Assembly: GCA_030040475.1 (NCBI GenBank)
Contig: JASHTQ010000161.1
Location: 1-11,758 of the forward strand
Direction of reading: 5' to 3'
Length of the DNA stretch: 11,758 nucleotides
Source of the DNA: Streptosporangiaceae bacterium
Lineage (GTDB): Bacteria; Actinomycetota; Actinomycetes; Streptosporangiales; Streptosporangiaceae
The translations under genes were made by a program, and so were the position numbers. Below, piece by piece: positions 3 through 11,758 of the stretch. The notes under the pieces are model-generated. The model did no database searches. It worked only from the letters and a program-made list of their open reading frames with translations, and was not told the origin of the DNA. Position 1 is the stretch's first letter, and each line of letters starts with the position of its first letter.

Positions 3-2030
3 GATCTCGCCCACCAGCTCGGGGTGGAGGTGGTCGCCGAGGGCGTCGAGTCCGAGGCCGTCAGGTCCGAGCTCGAGGCCCTCGGCTGTGACCTCGCCCA
101 GGGCTTCCTCCTCGGGCGGCCCATGCCGCCCGAGGTGTTCGCGGACTGGCTGCGCGAGCACCAGCAGCCCGCACAGCGGCGAGGCGGCCCGCAGCCGACC
201 GCGCCCACGGCGGCCAGGGTGACGGGAGCCGACGCCCGCAGCAGGCGGCTTACGCGCGCCTACCAGGGGCTGGTGGACGCCGCTCACCGGGCCGTGGACC
301 TGGTCGGGGGCCGCACGCTGGCGCTTGCGGTCGCGATGGGCGTCGTCTACGGGCAGTGGCAGATCTTCCGCTGGGGCGGCCGTCAGCACCAGACGCTGAT
401 CGGCGACCTGGCCTTCTTTCCGGTGAACGGCGCCGCTGCCCTGTGCGCCTGGCAGGTGTCGCTGCGCAGGGACCTGGGGCGGCAGGCGCGCCGGGCGTGG
501 CGCCTGCTCTCGATCGCGCTGTGGCTCTACCTGCTCGGCGACATGCTGCAGCTTGTCTACGAGTCGGTGCTACACGAGAGGCCCTATCCGAGCTGGGCCG
601 ACGCCTGCTACCTCAGCTTTTACCCCGTTGCCCTGGCCGGCCTGCTCACCTTCCCGTCCCACCGCCTGACCTGGTCGAAACGATTCCGGCTCATGCTCGA
701 CATGGGAACCGTATTCGTCGGCGGAGCAATTCTCATCTGGGACGTGGCGCTTGGGCCGGCCGCCGCGTCCGTCCACCATTTCGACCTGCCCGACATCGTG
801 ACCTACTCCTATCCGGTCGGTGACCTGCTGCTGTTGTTCGGGGTGCTGTCGCTGCTGTGGCGGGGCACGCCGCGGCTGAGCGTGACGTCCCTGCGCATCT
901 TCGCCGTCGGCATGCTGGTGCTGATCGCGGCCGACATGACCTACGACTACATCACCAGCGTCTCGACCTACGAGGGCGGCGATCCGGTCGACACCTTGTG
1001 GATCCTCGCGCTGCTGATCCTCTTCGTCGCGGCCGGATGCCAGCTGCGCGCCCGGCCGGCAGTGGGGTTCACCGCGCCGCCCCGGTCCCACGACACGCGC
1101 CCGAGCCACCTGCCGTACCTGGCGGTCGCGGGCAGCTACCTGCTGATGGCCTTCGTCGTGCTCAGGAGCAACGTCGGCTTCGATCCGGTAGGCGGCATCG
1201 TGCTTGGTGCGGTGCTGCTGACGGCGCTGGTGTGCGTGCGCCAGTTCACCGCGCTGCGCGATAACAACCGACTCGCGATCCGGTACGCCCAGCTCGCCTC
1301 GATCGACGGGATGACCGGCCTGTACAACCACCGGCACTTCATGGAGATGGCCGAGGGCGCCTTCGCCCATGCGCAGCGGCTCGGCCAGCCCCTCGTCGCC
1401 CTGATGCTCGACGTGGACCGCTTCAAGCAGATCAACGACGTGCACGGGCACGCCGTCGGCGACCGGGTGCTGGCCGCGCTGGCCCAGGCCTGCCGGGAGC
1501 AGGTCCGGACGGACGACATCGCGGGCCGCTACGGCGGCGACGAGTTCATCGTCGTGATCGCGGCGACCACGGCCCAGGGCGCGGCCCAGATCGCGGAGCA
1601 GCTGACCGGCTCCCCGGCCCACATCGCCGGCCCGGACGGGACCCCGGTCCCGTATACGGTCAGCGTCGGCATCGCCGAATCCACCAACTGCCACGACCTG
1701 CAGGGCCTGCTGGCCCGCGCCGACCTCGCCATGTACGAGGCCAAGCGGGCCGGCGGCGGCTGCTGGCGCATCTTCGAGGGCAAGGGCCAGGTGCCGAACC
1801 CGGCCCTGCCGACGCCGTTAGGGCCGGCCCTCACCCGGCGGAACGGTCAGCCCGCGGGGGCGGTCAGCTGCTCGAGGAACTCGCTCGCACGGGCGATGCG
1901 AGCGTCGAGATCGGCCAGGAAGCCCTCGATCGCCCGGCGCTTGGCCTCGACCGTCGCGCGGAGATCGCGGTGCAGCTCCAGGCTCTCGCGCACCAGTTCG
2001 CGGCGCTGCTCGTCGCTGGTGTACTCGTGA
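3..2030 (+). CDS. EAL (C-terminal part) - ten-TM - GGDEF c-di-GMP protein, 5' partial
   Basis: The gene enters from the left edge. Residues 1 to about 55 (residue 1 = codon at 3-5) are the end of an EAL phosphodiesterase domain, with VVAEGVE and the terminal QGFLLGRPMP motif. A charged linker follows, then roughly ten hydrophobic segments between residues 105 and 420, including the polar signature YPSWAD. A complete GGDEF domain occupies about residues 430-592. Its GGDEF signature (1533-1547) is intact, and RTDD sits five residues before it, fitting the RxxD product-inhibition I-site. The protein should therefore make c-di-GMP at the membrane; whether the EAL half degrades it cannot be judged because its catalytic EAL motif lies outside the window. 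EAL before the membrane block and GGDEF at the C-terminus is not the usual order. The last 75 or so codons run antisense through the MerR gene and look non-native, so the true end may be near 1821. Confidence 0.85.
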   Translation, partial: DLAHQLGVEVVAEGVESEAVRSELEALGCDLAQGFLLGRPMPPEVFADWLREHQQPAQRRGGPQPTAPTAARVTGADARSRRLTRAYQGLVDAAHRAVDLVGGRTLALAVAMGVVYGQWQIFRWGGRQHQTLIGDLAFFPVNGAAALCAWQVSLRRDLGRQARRAWRLLSIALWLYLLGDMLQLVYESVLHERPYPSWADACYLSFYPVALAGLLTFPSHRLTWSKRFRLMLDMGTVFVGGAILIWDVALGPAAASVHHFDLPDIVTYSYPVGDLLLLFGVLSLLWRGTPRLSVTSLRIFAVGMLVLIAADMTYDYITSVSTYEGGDPVDTLWILALLILFVAAGCQLRARPAVGFTAPPRSHDTRPSHLPYLAVAGSYLLMAFVVLRSNVGFDPVGGIVLGAVLLTALVCVRQFTALRDNNRLAIRYAQLASIDGMTGLYNHRHFMEMAEGAFAHAQRLGQPLVALMLDVDRFKQINDVHGHAVGDRVLAALAQACREQVRTDDIAGRYGGDEFIVVIAATTAQGAAQIAEQLTGSPAHIAGPDGTPVPYTVSVGIAESTNCHDLQGLLARADLAMYEAKRAGGGCWRIFEGKGQVPNPALPTPLGPALTRRNGQPAGAVSCSRNSLARAMRASRSARKPSIARRLASTVARRSRCSSRLSRTSSRRCSSLVYS
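1813..1840. terminator. Candidate bidirectional terminator hairpin
   Basis: Between the end of the GGDEF domain and the stop of the convergent MerR gene lies a nested dyad. The outer arms are CGCCG (1813-1817) and CGGCG (1836-1840). The inner 12-bp palindrome AGGGCCGGCCCT (1820-1831) can fold as AGGG/CCCT around a CCGG loop. There is no T-tract on either side, which is common for actinobacterial terminators but makes the call weak. The position, where two convergent genes meet, is the main support. Confidence 0.35.
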
Positions 2031-2383
2031 TGGTAGGCGCGCTTGATCTCGGCAATCCGGTCCTCGTGCCGCAGCACGACGGCGATCTCTTCCAGGTTGA
2101 GGCCGAGCAGGGCCTGCAGCTGCCGGATCCTGGCCACCCTGGCGAGGTCTTCCTCCGAGTAGCGCCGCATGCCGCCGGGCGTGCAGTGGCACGGGGTGAG
2201 CAGGCCGAGCTGCTGGTAATACCGCAGCGCCCGCTCCGAGACACCGGCGCGGGCCGCCGCGGCACCGATGCCGTACAGCGGCCCTTCCTGCGCCGGAGGC
2301 TCCGGCCCGGCGGCCCGCTGCGTGCCCACCGGTTCAGCCGTTCTGCGCCGGGGCTTCCGACCCGGAGGCCGCGGAGGCGGCAC
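1847..2383 (-). CDS. MerR-family transcriptional regulator
   Basis: This is a DNA-binding regulator of 178 aa if the GTG at 2381-2383 is used. The MerR winged helix-turn-helix lies at residues 37-105, with ARAGVSERALRYYQQLGLL followed by the wing GGMRRYSEEDLARV. A Glu/Arg-rich helix (about 120-172) fits the antiparallel coiled coil through which MerR proteins dimerise. No ligand domain follows, so the effector is unknown. An unusual CHC sits in the wing approach (residues 65-67), where Arg or Ala is common. The gene lies directly downstream of the exporter gene and overlaps its end by 50 bp from this start. A second GTG at 2327-2329 would start 4 nt after the exporter stop and omit a Pro/Arg-rich leader that looks non-native. 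Neither start has a clear ribosome site, so translational coupling to the exporter is likely. Regulation of that exporter is inferred from position. Confidence 0.9.
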   Translation of the reverse strand: MPPPRPPGRKPRRRTAEPVGTQRAAGPEPPAQEGPLYGIGAAAARAGVSERALRYYQQLGLLTPCHCTPGGMRRYSEEDLARVARIRQLQALLGLNLEEIAVVLRHEDRIAEIKRAYHHEYTSDEQRRELVRESLELHRDLRATVEAKRRAIEGFLADLDARIARASEFLEQLTAPAG

Positions 2384-4223
2384 CGACGCCGTTCCCGTTC
2401 GACCCGGGAGCCGGGGCGCCGGTAATGCCCGGCAGCCCCTCGGTCTCGTCCAGGCCGACGAGCCCGGCGGTCTCGGCGGCGCCTTCGGCCAGCTCCTCGA
2501 TGACCGGCTCGCCGCCGTGGAAGTAGCGCTTGCCGCGCAGGGCCGAGGCCACCACGGCGATGCCGGTGGCGATCGCGGCGAACGTGAAGGCCAGGTGCAT
2601 GCCGTCGGCGAACGGCTGCTCGATCAGCTGCGGGAAGAACGACCGGCCGGTGACGTAGGCAGCCTGGCTGGCCGACAGGTGCTGCAGCGCGCCGGTCGGG
2701 CCGAGCAGTTCCTTGATCGGGTTGTAGCCGAGGAAGGCCGAGAACAGGCTGCCGATCGGCGGCTCGCTGGCGACGAGGTGGGCCGCGGACGGGTTGATGC
2801 CGGCCGCCACCAGACCCTTGTACAGATGGCTGGGCAGTCGCGATGCCAGCCCTAGCGTGACGATGGTGAAGAACAGGCCCATGGACAGCACCGAGGCCGA
2901 GTTCTGGAAGGTGTTCAGCATCCCGGCGCCCGCGCCGCGCTGCTCGGGCGGCAGGCTGTTCATCACCGAGGCCTGGTTCGGCGAGAAGAACAGCCCCATG
3001 CCGACCGCGAACAGGAAGATCAGCAGCGCGAACCAGATGTAGCTGAAGTTGATCGGCAGCAGCTCGAGCAGCAGGAAGGTGCCGCCGGAGACGACGAGGC
3101 CCACGGTGGCGAGGACCCGGGCGCCCCACCGGTCCGACAGGACCCCGGAGACGGGGCCGAGCAGCAAGAACCCGATCGTCAGCGGGATCATGTAGATGCC
3201 CGCCCACAGCGGTGTCCGGTCGAAGCTGTAGCCGTGCTGCGGCAGCCAGATGCCCTGCAGCCAGATGATCAGCATGAACTGGATGCCGCCCCGGCCGAGC
3301 GCGCCCAGCATGCCCGCGATGTTCCCGGCGGTGAACGCGCGGATCCGGAACAGGCCGAGGCGGAACATCGGCGCCGGGACCTTGGTCTCGATCCAGCCGA
3401 ACAGGACCAGGATCGCGATCCCGCCGAAGACCGCGGTGAGCACCCACGGGTTCGTCCACCCGGTGGGGTGCCCGCCGTACGGGAGCAGCGAGTAGACGAT
3501 GCCGGTGAGCAGGGCGATCAGCCCGGCCGCGAACGTCGCGTTGCCCAGCCAGTCGATCTTGGCCGGGATGCGGATCCCGTTGTCGACGAGCTTGATGTAG
3601 GCCCAGACGGTGCCGAACAGCCCGAAGGGCACCGAGACCAGGAACACCAGCCGCCACTCGATCGGAGCCAGCACGCCGCCGAGGATGAGCCCGATGAACG
3701 AGCCGCTCACCGCCGCGATGCCGTTGATGCCCATCGCCTTGCCCCGCTCGTCCGGGGGGAAGGCGTCGGTCAAGATCGCGGTGGAGTTGGCGAACAGGAA
3801 CGCGCCGCCGACTCCCTGGAAGACCCGCATGACAATGATCCACAGCGCGCCGGCCGGCCCGGTGAGGAACGTCACCGACAGCAGGATCGAGAACAGCGTG
3901 AACACGGCGAAGCCCAGGTTGTACATCCGGACCCGGCCGTAGATGTCGCCTACCCGGCCGAGGCTGACCACCAGGACGGCGGTGACCAGCACGAATCCCA
4001 TGAACACCCAGAGGAAGTAGGAGGTGTTGGACGGGACGAGCGGGTTGAGGTTGATCCCGCGGAACAGCGCGGGCAGCGAGATCAGCAGGATCGACTGGTT
4101 GATGGTGACCATCAAGATGCCGAGCGTGGTGTTGGACAGCGCAATCCACTTGTAGTTCTTTCCCCGGCCAGCTGCGCTCCGGTCCCCGATGTCCCCATCG
4201 AGCGCGTGCTTGTCGACCGCCAT
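2334..4223 (-). CDS. DHA2-family MFS multidrug efflux transporter (14-TM type)
   Basis: This is a 629-aa major-facilitator protein, the length expected for the 14-helix drug:H+ antiporter family (EmrB/QacA relatives). The first helix carries NQSILLISLPALF. Motif A is GRVGDIYGRVRMY (about residues 89-101), the antiporter motif C region is GSFIGLILGGVL, and WRLVFLVSVPFG follows. The last 65 or so residues form a soluble Gly/Ala/Glu-rich tail. It should sit in the cytoplasmic membrane and export a drug or metabolite using the proton gradient; the substrate cannot be read from sequence. The ATG at 4221-4223 is preferred because GAGGAG lies 4 nt upstream. An in-frame ATG at 4286 adds 21 residues that lack a ribosome site. 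The MerR gene follows with overlapping coding sequence. Confidence 0.93.
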   Translation of the reverse strand: MAVDKHALDGDIGDRSAAGRGKNYKWIALSNTTLGILMVTINQSILLISLPALFRGINLNPLVPSNTSYFLWVFMGFVLVTAVLVVSLGRVGDIYGRVRMYNLGFAVFTLFSILLSVTFLTGPAGALWIIVMRVFQGVGGAFLFANSTAILTDAFPPDERGKAMGINGIAAVSGSFIGLILGGVLAPIEWRLVFLVSVPFGLFGTVWAYIKLVDNGIRIPAKIDWLGNATFAAGLIALLTGIVYSLLPYGGHPTGWTNPWVLTAVFGGIAILVLFGWIETKVPAPMFRLGLFRIRAFTAGNIAGMLGALGRGGIQFMLIIWLQGIWLPQHGYSFDRTPLWAGIYMIPLTIGFLLLGPVSGVLSDRWGARVLATVGLVVSGGTFLLLELLPINFSYIWFALLIFLFAVGMGLFFSPNQASVMNSLPPEQRGAGAGMLNTFQNSASVLSMGLFFTIVTLGLASRLPSHLYKGLVAAGINPSAAHLVASEPPIGSLFSAFLGYNPIKELLGPTGALQHLSASQAAYVTGRSFFPQLIEQPFADGMHLAFTFAAIATGIAVVASALRGKRYFHGGEPVIEELAEGAAETAGLVGLDETEGLPGITGAPAPGSNGNGVGAASAASGSEAPAQNG

Positions 4224-4227
4224 GCCG

Positions 4228-4233
4228 CTCCTC
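4228..4233 (-). promoter_or_regulatory. Ribosome binding site deciding the start of the first MFS exporter
   Basis: On the minus strand GAGGAG lies 4 nt before the ATG at 4223. It is the only strong Shine-Dalgarno sequence near the N-terminus and rules against the longer start at 4286. Confidence 0.7.
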
Positions 4234-4271
4234 GTGATGCTCCCAGCGAAAAGGGCCAGCTGAGTGAAACC

Positions 4272-4286
4272 TGACCCGAACGTCAA
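4272..4286 (-). promoter_or_regulatory. Candidate -35 / operator dyad upstream of the MFS-MerR unit
   Basis: On the minus strand TTGACG (4281-4286) resembles a -35 box. It overlaps a small dyad, TGAC-N6-GTCA (4272-4285), about 50 bp upstream of the exporter start. MerR proteins bind dyads between -35 and -10, so the position is suggestive. I could not find a convincing -10 box at 15-20 bp spacing, so the call is weak. Confidence 0.25.
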
Positions 4287-4850: not shown

Positions 4851-4887
4851 TACTTACCTGCTTCCCTCAATCCAAACCAAATGTCAA
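4851..4887 (-). promoter_or_regulatory. AT-rich promoter candidate for the small membrane-protein gene
   Basis: This is a distinctly AT-rich patch in very GC-rich surroundings. On the minus strand a perfect TTGACA (4882-4887) overlaps the stop codon of the upstream exporter gene. TAAGTA (4853-4858) lies 23 bp further on, and TTGGTT sits at the more normal 18-bp distance from it. Promoter function is plausible, but the exact -35/-10 pair is not settled. Confidence 0.35.
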
Positions 4888-6455
4888 GACCCTGCGTCGA
4901 CCGGACGTGAGCGTAGCGTGATGGCGCAGAGCACCGCGGCGAACAGCGCGAGCCCGGCCGACAGGTAGAGCGCCGCGTGCAGGCCGCTGTGGAAGGCCGA
5001 GTACGCCGCGTCGATGACCTCCCTGACGATCTTGGCGTCGCCGAGGGTGTTCTTCGGGATCTGGCCGGTCTCCAGGGCGTTGGCGACCAGCGTCTGGTAC
5101 ACCTTCGGAATGCCCAGCGCGGTCATCTGGGTGTCCAGGCTGACCTTGAGCTGGGAGTCGACAAGCGAGCCGAGGATGGCCACGCCGGTGACGGCGCCGA
5201 TCTCCCGGCTGGTATTCGAGGCCGAGGCGGCCATGCCTGACCGCTCGGCGGGCACCGCGGCGAGCACCGAGGACGTGATCGGGACCACGGTCGTGCCGAT
5301 GCCGATGCCAGCCAGCGCGAGCGCGACCACCAGCGGCCCGTAGTCCGGGTGCGGAGACAGGTAGCCGTTGGCCAGGAACAGGCCGACGGCGAACAGCAGG
5401 CAGCCGATCGTGATTGACCAGCGCGGCCCGACCAGCGCGGTCCACCGTCCGGCGAGCACCGACGCGACGATCATCAGCACGGTCATCGGCAGGAAGACGA
5501 CCGCGAGCTTGAACCCGGACGCGTTCACGATCTCGACCAGGTACAGCGCGGTGAAGAAGAAGACCGCGAACGTGCCGAAATAGGTGCAGAACGCGGTGAT
5601 GTTCGCGGTGGTGAACTGCGGGATGCGCAGGTACCGCAGGTCGAGCAGGGGATTCTCGGCGCGGCGCTCGTGCCAGACGAAGGCCACCGCGAGCACCGCG
5701 CTCGCGCACAGCAGGAGGATCACCGCGGTCGCGGCGAAGCCGGCCTGCTCCGCGTCGATGATCGCGAACACGAAGGTGGCCAGCGCGCCCGCGCCGAGCA
5801 GCGTGCCCGCGGTGTCGACCCGCTTGGCCGTCGGATCCGCGCTCTCCGGCAGGATCCGCGCCGCGACGATCAGGGCGATCAGCCCGAACGCCAGGTTGAA
5901 CCAGAAGATGCCCCGCCAGCTCCAGACGCCGACAAGCACCCCGCCGACGACAGGGCCGGCCGCGAGCGCGAAGCCGGACGTGCCCGCCCACACGCCGATC
6001 GCCCGGCTGCGTGCCCTGGCGTCCGGGTACATCTGCCGCAGCATCGACAGCGTGCCCGGCTCGCTGGCCGCCGCGCCGAGGCCCATCACGGCGCGGCCCG
6101 CGATGAGCGTCTGCACGTTCGGGGCGAGGGCGCACAGCACCGAGCCGGCGCAGAAGACCGCGGCCCCGGCGAGCATGACCTTCTTGCGGCCCAGTTCGTC
6201 CCCGATCATCCCGCAGGCCAGCATCAGGCTCGCGAACGTGAGGGCGTACGCGCCGACGACCCACTGCAGGTCGGTGACGCCCGCCTTCAGGCTCGTCTGG
6301 ATGTCGCCGAGGGCGACGCTGACCACCGTGTTGTCGAGGAAGGTGAGGAAGAGCAGCGTGCACAGGGTCGCGAGGGCCAGCCGCTGGCCGGCCCGGGGGA
6401 CGCTGCCGCCCTCGCCGTGCCGGTCACCGGAGACGGCCTCCGCCGATCTGGCCAA
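4884..6455 (-). CDS. DHA2-family MFS transporter (EmrB/QacA-like, 14-TM type)
   Basis: This is a 523-aa drug:H+ antiporter-type major-facilitator protein of usual length. The first helix has the family signature FLDNTVVSVALGDIQTSL, and motif A appears as MIGDELGRKKVML. The helix-5 region is GPVVGGVLVGVWSWRGIFWFNL, and GIGIGTTVVPITSSVLAAVP is the conserved stretch of the C-terminal half. It should be an inner-membrane exporter; the substrate is unknown. The start is TTG at 6453-6455. An in-frame stop at 6471-6473 bars a longer protein, no ATG or GTG occurs before the first helix, and an AAGGCAGG ribosome site (6461-6468) lies 5 nt upstream, overlapping the stop of the lipoprotein gene. The 11-nt gap makes co-transcription with the lipoprotein very likely. 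It differs clearly from the exporter at 2334-4223, so it is not a recent duplicate. Confidence 0.92.
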   Translation of the reverse strand: MARSAEAVSGDRHGEGGSVPRAGQRLALATLCTLLFLTFLDNTVVSVALGDIQTSLKAGVTDLQWVVGAYALTFASLMLACGMIGDELGRKKVMLAGAAVFCAGSVLCALAPNVQTLIAGRAVMGLGAAASEPGTLSMLRQMYPDARARSRAIGVWAGTSGFALAAGPVVGGVLVGVWSWRGIFWFNLAFGLIALIVAARILPESADPTAKRVDTAGTLLGAGALATFVFAIIDAEQAGFAATAVILLLCASAVLAVAFVWHERRAENPLLDLRYLRIPQFTTANITAFCTYFGTFAVFFFTALYLVEIVNASGFKLAVVFLPMTVLMIVASVLAGRWTALVGPRWSITIGCLLFAVGLFLANGYLSPHPDYGPLVVALALAGIGIGTTVVPITSSVLAAVPAERSGMAASASNTSREIGAVTGVAILGSLVDSQLKVSLDTQMTALGIPKVYQTLVANALETGQIPKNTLGDAKIVREVIDAAYSAFHSGLHAALYLSAGLALFAAVLCAITLRSRPVDAGS

Positions 6456-8930: not shown

Positions 8931-9029
8931 CGGCCACCGCTCCCCTCGTACCCGGACGAATCGTAGCCTAGGAGATACTGGCCGGGCAGGCCGATCGAAG
9001 CGCCGATCCAAGCGGAGGTGAGGCCGGGC
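8931..9029. promoter_or_regulatory. Divergent intergenic region between lysozyme-like gene and fdhA
   Basis: These 99 bases must carry the start signals of both divergent genes. Apart from the two ribosome sites, I see only weak -10-like hexamers: TACGAT on the minus strand (8960-8965) and GATACT on the plus strand (8974-8979). Neither has a good -35 partner. A CCTAGG palindrome lies between them. Confidence 0.35.
9014..9021 (+). promoter_or_regulatory. Ribosome binding site of the formate dehydrogenase gene
   Basis: GGAGGTGA is a near-perfect Shine-Dalgarno sequence 8 nt before the ATG at 9030. It decides against the in-frame GTG at 9018, which lies inside this motif. Confidence 0.85.
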
Positions 9030-11758
9030 ATGGGAAACCGTCGCCGCATCGGGTCGTGGCCGGTGTACCGGCAGCTCACCGGGACCGACCGCCGTGGCCT
9101 CGGCGCCGCGGCCAGCAGCGGCCGCCGCCGCGAGGCCCGCACCGCCGACGCCGACACGGTGGTCAAGTCGATCTGCCCCTACTGCGCGGTCGGCTGCGGG
9201 CAGAACATCTACGTGAAAGACGGCAAGGTCGTCCAGATCGAGGGCGATCCCGACTCGCCGGTCAGCCGCGGTCGGCTGTGTCCCAAGGGGTCGGCGACGA
9301 TGCAGCTCACCACGGGGTCCGCGCGTCAGTACCGGGTCAAGTACCGCCCTCCGTTCGGGAAAAATTGGGAAGACCTCGACCTGGATACGGCGATGGACAT
9401 GATCGCCGACCGGGTGCTGGCGGCCCGTCGCCATGGCTGGCAGTGGGAGGTCGACGGCAACCGGACGCGGCGGACGCTCGGGTTCGCCAGCCTCGGCGGC
9501 GCGACGCTGGACAACGAAGAGAACTACCTGATCAAGAAGCTGTTCACCGCGCTCGGCGCGATCCAGATCGAGAACCAGGCGCGGATATGACACTCCTCCA
9601 CCGTCCCCGGTCTGGGGACTAGCTTCGGCCGCGGCGGCGCCACCACGTTCCCCGGGGACCTGGTCAACGCCGACTGCATCGTCATCCAGGGCTCCAACAT
9701 GGCCGAGTGCCACCCGGTCGCCTTCCAGTGGGTGATCGAGGCCAAGGCCCGCGGCGCCACGGTGATCCACGTCGATCCCCGGTTCACCCGCACCAGCGCG
9801 CTTGCCGACCTGCACGTGCCGCTGCGGGCCGGCACCGACATCGTGTTCATCGGCGGGATCATCAACTACGTCCTGGCGAACGAGAAGTACTTCCGCGACT
9901 ACGTGGTGGCCTACACCAACGCGGCCGTCATCCTCAGCGAGGACTACCAGGACACCGAGGACCTGGACGGCGTATTCGCCGGACTTGACGTGACGGGTCA
10001 CCGCTACGACAAGGCCCCCTGGAGCTACTCAGGCGCCATGATGCGGGCCGCGGCCGGTTCCCGCGGCAAACCATATGACCTAACGAACGGTGGTGCCAGC
10101 GTCGCGACCGGTCAGCCGCAAGTGGCCGAATCCCTCGAACACCCGCGTTCGGTCTTCCAGACCCTCAAGCGTCACTTCTCCCGGTACACCCCGGAGGTCG
10201 TGGCGGACGCCTGCGGCGTGTCACCGGAGACGTTCACCAGGATCTGCGAGCTGCTCACCGCGAACTCCGGGCGCGACCGGACCACCGCGTTCGTGTACAG
10301 CGTCGGCTGGACCCAGCACACGGTGGGGGTGCAGTACATCCGCAGCGCCTCGATCCTGCAGGCGCTGCTCGGCAACATGGGCCGCCCGGGCGGCGGCATC
10401 CTGGCGCTGCGCGGCCACGCGTCCATCCAGGGGTCGACCGACATTCCCACCCTGTTCGACCTGCTGCCCGGGTACCTGCCGATGCCGAACGCCCGGGTCC
10501 ATCACAACCTGGACGCCTACCTCGGCGACATCACGCAGACGAAGGGGTTCTGGGCCAACAGCCCGGCGTACCTGGTCAGCCTGCTCAAGGCGTACTGGGG
10601 CGAGGCCGCCACGGCCGACAACGAGTTCTGCTTTGACTACGTGCCCCGGCTGACCGGCGACCACGGTGCGTTCGCGACCGTGCTCGAGCAGCTGAACGGC
10701 CGGTGCAAGGGGTACCTGCTGCTTGGCCAGAACCCGGCGGTCGGCGGGGCCAACGCCCGGATGCAGCGGCTCGCGATGGCCAACCTCGACTGGCTGGTCG
10801 TCCGGGACCTGACGATGATCGAGAGCGCGACCTGGTGGCAGGACGGGCCCGAGATCGAGAGCGGCGAGATGCGCACCGAGGACATCAAGACCGAGGTGTT
10901 CTTCATGCCCGCCGCCGCGCACACCGAGAAGTCGGGCAGCTTCACCAATACCCAGCGCATGCTGCAGTGGCACCACGAGGCCGTGCTCCCGACCGGCGAC
11001 GCGCGCAGCGAGCTGTGGTTCGCCTACCACCTCGGCTTGCGCATCCGCGAGAAGCTGGCCGGTTCTGCCGACGAGGCTGACCGGCCCGTGCAGGACCTGA
11101 CCTGGGACTACCCGGTGCATGGTCCGCTGGCCGAGCCGTCGGCCGAGGCGGTGCTCGCCGAGGTCAACGGGTGGGACGCCGAGGGCAAGCCGCTGGCCGG
11201 GTTCGCCGGCCTGCGGGCCGACGGGTCGACCACCTGCGGGTGCTGGATCTACAGCGGCGCGTACGCCGGCGGGGTCAACCAGACCGCCAGGCGCAAGCCG
11301 GGCGCCGAGCAGAGCTGGGTCGCGCCCGAGTGGGGCTGGGCCTGGCCCGCCAACCGCCGGATCCTGTACAACCGGGCCTCGGCCGACCCGGACGGCAAGC
11401 CGTGGAGCGAGCGCAAATCCTACGTCTGGTGGGATCCCGAGGCGGAGAAGTGGACCGGGCACGACGTGCCGGACTTCCCCGTCACCCGGCCGCCGTCCTA
11501 CCGGCCGCCGGAGGGGGCGACCGGGGTCGACGCGCTGTCCGGCATCGACCCGTTCATCATGCAGAACGACGGCAAGGCGTGGCTGTTCGCCCCGGCCGGG
11601 CTGGCCGACGGGCCGCTGCCCGCCCACTACGAGCCGCAGGAGTCGCCGGTCGCCAACCCGCTGTACGGCCAGCAGCGCAACCCGGTCAGGGAGATCATCA
11701 GGCACAAGGACAACCCGCTGCAGCCGAGCGGGAACGAGCCGGGCTCGCAGGTGTTCCC
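9030..11758 (+). CDS. fdhA: Selenocysteine-containing formate dehydrogenase catalytic (alpha) subunit, 3' partial
   Basis: This molybdenum/tungsten bis-MGD oxidoreductase oxidises formate to CO2. The window holds 909 codons, all open except one TGA at codon 187. A [4Fe-4S] site is formed by C49-x2-C52-x3-C56-x27-C84, followed by PKG with the conserved Lys. The frame then reads LGAIQIENQARI-TGA-HSSTVPGLGTSFGRGG, the family active site with selenocysteine at the TGA and its His partner next. Homology continues afterwards: GSNMAECHPV, HVDPRFTRTSALAD, SVGWTQHTVGVQYIRS, GNMGRPGGGILALRGHASIQG and HTEKSGSFTNTQRMLQW. No stop follows before the window end; I expect about 100-170 residues (the cofactor-binding C-terminus) beyond it. 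The N-terminus has Arg pairs but no hydrophobic core, so there is no Tat signal and the enzyme should be cytoplasmic. A loop near residues 340-370 (10050-10140) has looser codon use and is a variable linker in this family. Electron-transfer partners are not in the window. Confidence 0.96.
9591..9619 (+). promoter_or_regulatory. Bacterial SECIS element for UGA-to-selenocysteine decoding
   Basis: GTCCCC (9603-9608) and GGGGAC (9614-9619) form a perfect 6-bp stem around the five-base loop GGTCT (9609-9613). Bacterial SECIS hairpins lie just after the UGA inside the coding region and present a GU-containing loop to SelB. Here 18 nt separate the TGA from GGTCT. In E. coli fdhF, as I remember its sequence, the same loop stands at the same 18-nt distance. 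The stem also encodes residues of the active-site loop (VPGLG), so it is under double constraint. Confidence 0.88.

Follow-up and report, generated by a model that had tools for sequence, protein, structure and literature searches.

Gene content of the locus

The window, that is, the whole stretch of 11,758 nucleotides analyzed here, ends inside an fdhA-type gene, which encodes a Mo/W formate dehydrogenase catalytic subunit. On its left lie a GGDEF/EAL protein, a MerR-type regulator, and two DHA2-type MFS transporters (Table 1). The fdhA-type gene is truncated by the right edge of the window, its own stop codon lying beyond, and its full-length relatives have about 1,045-1,105 residues. With the TGA at 9588-9590 read as selenocysteine (Sec), 909 codons are visible from the ATG at 9030 up to the window end, and there is no other stop between 9015 and 11758. 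A GTG at 9018 is an alternative start.

Assignment of the gene is clear from profile and structure matches. When Cys is substituted for Sec in the translation, residues 12-914 match positions 3-921 (of 1067) of NF041513 (formate_DH_Act) with 1657 bits against a curated cut-off of 1400, which places the protein in this family. In Pfam, the translation matches PF04879 and PF00384. The score for TIGR01553 (formate dehydrogenase-N subunit alpha) is slightly under the cut-off (797.3 versus 814.2 bits), as part of the protein lies beyond the window; the alignment to this profile stops at position 871 of 1009. Of the 42 PDB matches, the best 13 all belong to formate dehydrogenases; 1h0h and 1kqf head the list, and the next 11 entries carry names that mark them as selenocysteine-containing.

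Table 1. Features of the window, with strand and supporting evidence
Feature	Position	Strand	Evidence
GGDEF/EAL protein	from 3	+	profile matches
MerR-type regulator	1847-2383	-	profile matches
Two DHA2-type MFS transporters	2334-4286 and 4884-6455	-	profile matches
ORF that an ordinary gene caller would terminate at the TGA (covers the Fe4S4 domain and the first part of the Mo-cofactor domain)	9018-9590	+	ORF list, Pfam
fdhA-type gene, Mo/W formate dehydrogenase catalytic subunit	9030-11758	+	NF041513, PF04879, PF00384, translation
In-frame TGA, selenocysteine codon	9588-9590	+	aligned with the Sec position in 1h0h and 1kqf; codon counts in relatives
SECIS stem, 5' arm (GTCCCC)	9603-9608	+	6/6 pairs
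SECIS apical loop (GGTCT)	9609-9613	+	loop variants in stop-type relatives
SECIS stem, 3' arm (GGGGAC)	9614-9619	+	paired changes with the 5' arm
ORF that an ordinary gene caller would begin 3' of the TGA, at the first ATG (no stop before the window end)	9699-11756	+	ORF list; P0021, P0073, and P0107 share the start Met

The in-frame TGA and its hairpin

In the alignments to chain A of 1h0h and of 1kqf, the TGA falls on the Sec site, where both structures print X, and the His codon CAC (9591-9593) comes directly after it. An in-frame UGA at the catalytic Cys/Sec position is thus present, as in bacterial selenoproteins. The original prediction had described a frame of 909 codons broken by one TGA, at the position where the family has Cys or Sec followed by His, and then a perfect 6-bp stem with the loop GGTCT 12 nt past the TGA. 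The sequence and the alignment bear out the first two points, and the hairpin is indeed found at 9603-9619 with this 12-nt spacing.

Taken alone, the hairpin is within chance for such GC-rich DNA. In the window, five TGA trinucleotides on the forward strand (the fdhA TGA counted) and two on the reverse strand are followed 8-14 nt on by a perfect 6-bp stem. When the 51-nt stretch was shuffled, 176 of 200 shuffles folded equally well or better (z = +1.10), and thermodynamic stability was dropped as an argument for the hairpin, since it is no better than in shuffled sequence. Neither the window nor L001, the syntenic relative described below, contains an Rfam family at or above the gathering score. 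What makes the hairpin significant is where it falls in the protein and that relatives conserve it.

Site codon and stem in related genes

Two samples of relatives were compared. One genome per species was scanned with short peptides of the window's protein, which yielded 80 related loci; as the scan was built this way, its TGA/TGC ratio is not unbiased. All but one of these loci (L065) cover the Sec site, and in the 79 that do, the site codon is TGA in 73, TAG in one, and TGC in five. The stem was then read in 74 stop-type sequences, namely those with no masked bases, the window included and L025 excluded because of a masked base. Standard pairs are complete (6/6) in 63 sequences, and the remaining 11 have 5/6. 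The apical loop is GGTCT in 51, AGTTT in 12, and AGTCT in 11. The five TGC loci keep just two to four stem pairs.

The second sample depends less on the window's protein and consists of 100 genomes from the family of L001. Among the matches listed, 44 genomes have a match of at least 60% identity holding one TGA, 22 have uninterrupted matches of at least 60% only, and 34 have no match of at least 60% covering the site and were tallied separately. The site codon was read in 46 interrupted genes, one or two per genome and covering all 44 genomes; G064 and G070 each have one further TGA-type match outside this count. In all 46 the TGA falls exactly at the Sec codon, with six stem pairs in 45 and five in one. 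The 25 uninterrupted genes that were read, from all 22 Cys-only genomes and from three genomes having both types, encode Cys without exception (TGC in 22, TGT in three), with three to five pairs and none with six. Pooled with the five TGC loci, Cys-type genes have six pairs in 0/30 cases and five in 3/30. A more distant formate dehydrogenase was also seen in this family (L164, G123:C1:947355-948275); it is 43% identical and has a TGA at the site, a six-pair stem, and the loop AGTTT.

The stem also lies across codons in such a way that third positions pair with each other: a Val codon with a Gly codon, and a Pro codon with a Leu codon, all silent here. These two pairs are standard in 43/46 and 46/46 distinct sequences, and 0 of 20,000 permutations reached either value. 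A chosen alignment of 25 rows has 97.3% of its cells paired and 16 cells altered on both sides; neither value was reached in 500 shuffles. Permutation tests on related sequences overstate significance, whereas sliding the stem partners against each other preserves relatedness; when they are slid by 1-3 columns in the same alignment, pairing falls from 97.3% to 31-62%. In these alignments, silent positions of one stem arm change together with those of the other. As in bacterial selenoprotein genes, a SECIS hairpin conserved as a structure lies just 3' of the UGA.

Selenocysteine machinery in the relatives

Selenocysteine genes were sought in a panel of 25 genomes, made up of those of 20 of the 74 stop-type loci (19 TGA, 1 TAG) and of all five Cys-type loci. 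SelA, SelD, and tRNA-Sec are each above cut-off in 20/20 stop-type genomes versus 0/5 Cys-type genomes. For SelB the figures are 13/20 versus 0/5, and the former is an undercount because in the other seven stop-type genomes weaker selB matches (148-241 bits) adjoin selA. A selB match is on the same contig as selA in 18/20 stop-type genomes. In the five Cys-type genomes, selB matches best to frames of 401-411 amino acids (197-205 bits); judged by their length, these are read as EF-Tu. Two observations from this survey concern individual genes. In G016 (C6:248888-250267), the selA matches come in two pieces within one 875-residue open frame, jointly above cut-off; an insertion or a fusion is possible. 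In a Geomonas genome (G017:C10:71258-72175), SelD has one in-frame TGA and is probably a selenoprotein itself.

In the family sample, among the matches listed, tRNA-Sec is found in 43/44 and selA in 42/44 TGA-type genomes, each in 8/22 Cys-only genomes, and each in 13 of the remaining 34. Fisher's exact test on these genomes, again among the matches listed and uncorrected for kinship, gives 5e-8 for tRNA-Sec and 4e-7 for selA. The tRNA-Sec was tallied at 60 bits or more (64 family genomes), and six further genomes pass the gathering score weakly. The TGA-type exceptions are G064 and G115, with no selA above cut-off, and G117, with no strong tRNA-Sec; all three may be due to incomplete assemblies. 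The sel genes of Cys-only genomes may serve other selenoproteins. The distant TGA-type enzyme L164 may explain those of G123, which was tallied as Cys-only.

Genomic neighborhood

The nearest full-length genomic relative found is L001, from a Streptosporangiaceae metagenome assembly (genome G001). The window and L001 share the order transporter, lipoprotein, Smr protein, kinase (taken for a gluconokinase), GH25 protein, and fdhA, with identities of 75, 43, 90, 74, 76, and 78-79%, respectively. Given this shared order, the window very probably comes from a related actinobacterium. G001 carries selA, selB, selC (tRNA-Sec), and selD: contig C317 has the first three and C271 has selD, with fdhA on C188. 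The genome holds two TGA-type fdhA genes, both with the hairpin, the one on C188 (78-79% identical to the window's) and another on C192 (L144, 73%).

The original prediction placed the sel genes possibly close to fdhA. They were not seen close to it in the sequence at hand: the window has no tRNA gene by ARAGORN, no Rfam match, and no sel gene in the subset of ORF translations scanned. No sel gene was found in the 22.7-kb stretch around fdhA of L001 either, though the draft state of that assembly limits this result. In some other relatives selA does lie within a few kb of fdhA, for example about 3.4 kb away in G108.

Directly 3' of fdhA in L001, where fdhB is expected, there is instead a short Rho-like gene followed by an alpha-galactosidase (13384-15510). 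The Rho-like gene was considered as an FdhA partner and set aside, having no relative at E <= 1e-30 in the other loci compared. A PaaE/BenC-like reductase ORF sits at 18291-19652, about 5 kb beyond fdhA, and the downstream ORFs scanned in L001 include no 4Fe-4S or NrfD protein. For a membrane-bound complex of the FdnGHI type, an fdhB (4Fe-4S) gene and an fdhC or NrfD-type gene would be expected right after fdhA. One downstream ORF, in some cases perhaps in the wrong frame, was taken in each of 10 other relatives: four match Fer4_11 (4Fe-4S), one matches NrfD, and five have no match. In this lineage the Sec-containing FdhA might conceivably stand alone, far from the sel genes and lacking the usual FdhB and FdhC, in which case its electrons would pass to a partner encoded elsewhere; we put this forward tentatively, as less likely than not.

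Comparison with known systems

Strain DSM 45062, which we take to be Actinomycetospora chiangmaiensis, is a cultured actinobacterium that bears on this case. A 2020 report describes its FdhA1-3, whose Mo/W-binding domain contains Sec, and includes a search for SECIS elements (PMC7176365). Experiments on the culture are described in the same report, with selenium-dependent formate removal and SelA, SelB, and SelD in the proteome (PMC7176365). The window's protein, also an actinobacterial FdhA, has its Sec site in this domain as well. In a table of that report, SelA and SelB appear with the FDH1 cluster (PMC7176365), whereas none are visible at the window's fdhA, of which only the left side lies in the window. 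Corynebacterium aurimucosum ATCC 700975, according to a 2010 paper, has an fdnG with an internal UGA, together with selABD and selC (PMC2830990). There the sel genes are clustered with fdnG; none were found among the ORF translations scanned in the window or in the 22.7 kb around fdhA of L001.

Outside the actinobacteria, an unannotated E. coli gene of the Fdh-N/Fdh-O type (L086) has the same arrangement: its UGA-CAC occupies the corresponding codon, and a hairpin whose loop is AGTCT follows in register. E. coli formate dehydrogenase and the window's FdhA are about 38% identical as proteins. Their N-terminal leaders differ, as the alignment to 1kqf begins at residue 44 of the window's protein and residue 41 of 1kqf; inspection of the window's FdhA by eye reveals no Tat signal.

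Formate dehydrogenases in which UAG encodes selenocysteine are reported from Geodermatophilaceae (PMC5330540); the enzyme type is the same, but the codon there is UAG and in the window UGA. The TAG locus of our sample belongs to this variant. In Geodermatophilus sp. TF02-6 (L004), TAG occupies the Sec codon (L004:10565-10567), followed by the same hairpin, and the genome has a tRNA-Sec-like gene (L089:8257-8352) with the anticodon CTA, which ARAGORN labels tRNA-Pyl.

How the interrupted frame is best explained

The likeliest alternative to a selenoprotein is decay: a Cys-type formate dehydrogenase whose TGC or TGT has become TGA, the hairpin being a coincidence of GC-rich DNA. The chance occurrence of perfect 6-bp stems after other TGAs in the window, a fold no better than that of shuffled sequence, and the many Cys-type relatives (25 genes checked) all fit such a history. 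It is nevertheless very improbable. The TGA stands at the same codon in 73/79 related loci, every readable TGA locus keeps at least five of the six pairs with covarying third codon positions, and the Cys-type genes keep six pairs in none of 30 cases and five in three. The frame is open apart from the TGA. Moreover, among 120 listed homologues, P0005, P0021, P0073, and P0107 (89-91% identical, 847-860 amino acids) start only past the TGA position, and these four clusters comprise 17 member sequences; P0021, P0073, and P0107 start at the same Met as ORF 9699.

Two further explanations are more improbable still. If a Cys codon had been misread in sequencing or assembly, one wrong base would suffice, as TGC or TGT differs from TGA by no more; yet the hairpin is complete here, a state seen in none of the 30 Cys-type genes, and the TGA recurs in relatives from many assemblies. 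Equally remote is the deliberate production of two polypeptides, with a stop at the TGA and a restart downstream. The ATG at 9699 does open a long ORF, but the 36 residues between the TGA and this ATG, the His beside the Sec included, share 81-92% identity with eight relatives, among them one of the Cys type, and the split would separate the Fe4S4 domain from the remaining cofactor domain. Over the same eight relatives, pN/pS of this segment ranges from 0.12 to 0.60, too variable by segment to separate the readings, and it is therefore weak support for translation of the segment.

The gene is almost certainly an intact actinobacterial formate dehydrogenase catalytic subunit, with an active-site Sec inserted at the UGA. 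This reading is favored because the comparison with relatives decides, not the hairpin alone. The claim of an intact selenoprotein, already made in the original prediction, gains its support from the conserved codon in an otherwise open frame, from the covarying stem and its loss in Cys-type genes, and from the joint presence, in relatives, of SelA, SelD, tRNA-Sec, and SelB. The expectation that an ordinary caller would split the gene fits the four database proteins that start after the TGA, which are known from their protein sequences alone.

A model of the decoding can be proposed by analogy, as the action of SelB, SECIS, and tRNA-Sec is established knowledge. The hairpin (stem 9603-9619, loop GGUCU) 3' of the UGA at 9588-9590 would bind SelB carrying Sec-tRNA-Sec. 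The ribosome would then insert selenocysteine in place of termination and continue to the full protein. By analogy with known formate dehydrogenases, the selenocysteine would be a ligand to Mo/W in the bis-MGD cofactor, with formate being oxidized to CO2 by the enzyme.

Significance

This kind of gene is well known: published work already covers actinobacterial Sec formate dehydrogenases, the SECIS elements they carry, and the variant with UAG, and the present case is a solid yet ordinary new instance. The family comparison nonetheless reveals a SECIS stem held by silent codon positions and absent from the Cys-type relatives. Its practical weight lies in annotation. The four proteins closest in identity among the 120 listed all begin past the TGA, and wherever this TGA is treated as a stop, a key enzyme of formate oxidation is lost from actinobacteria.
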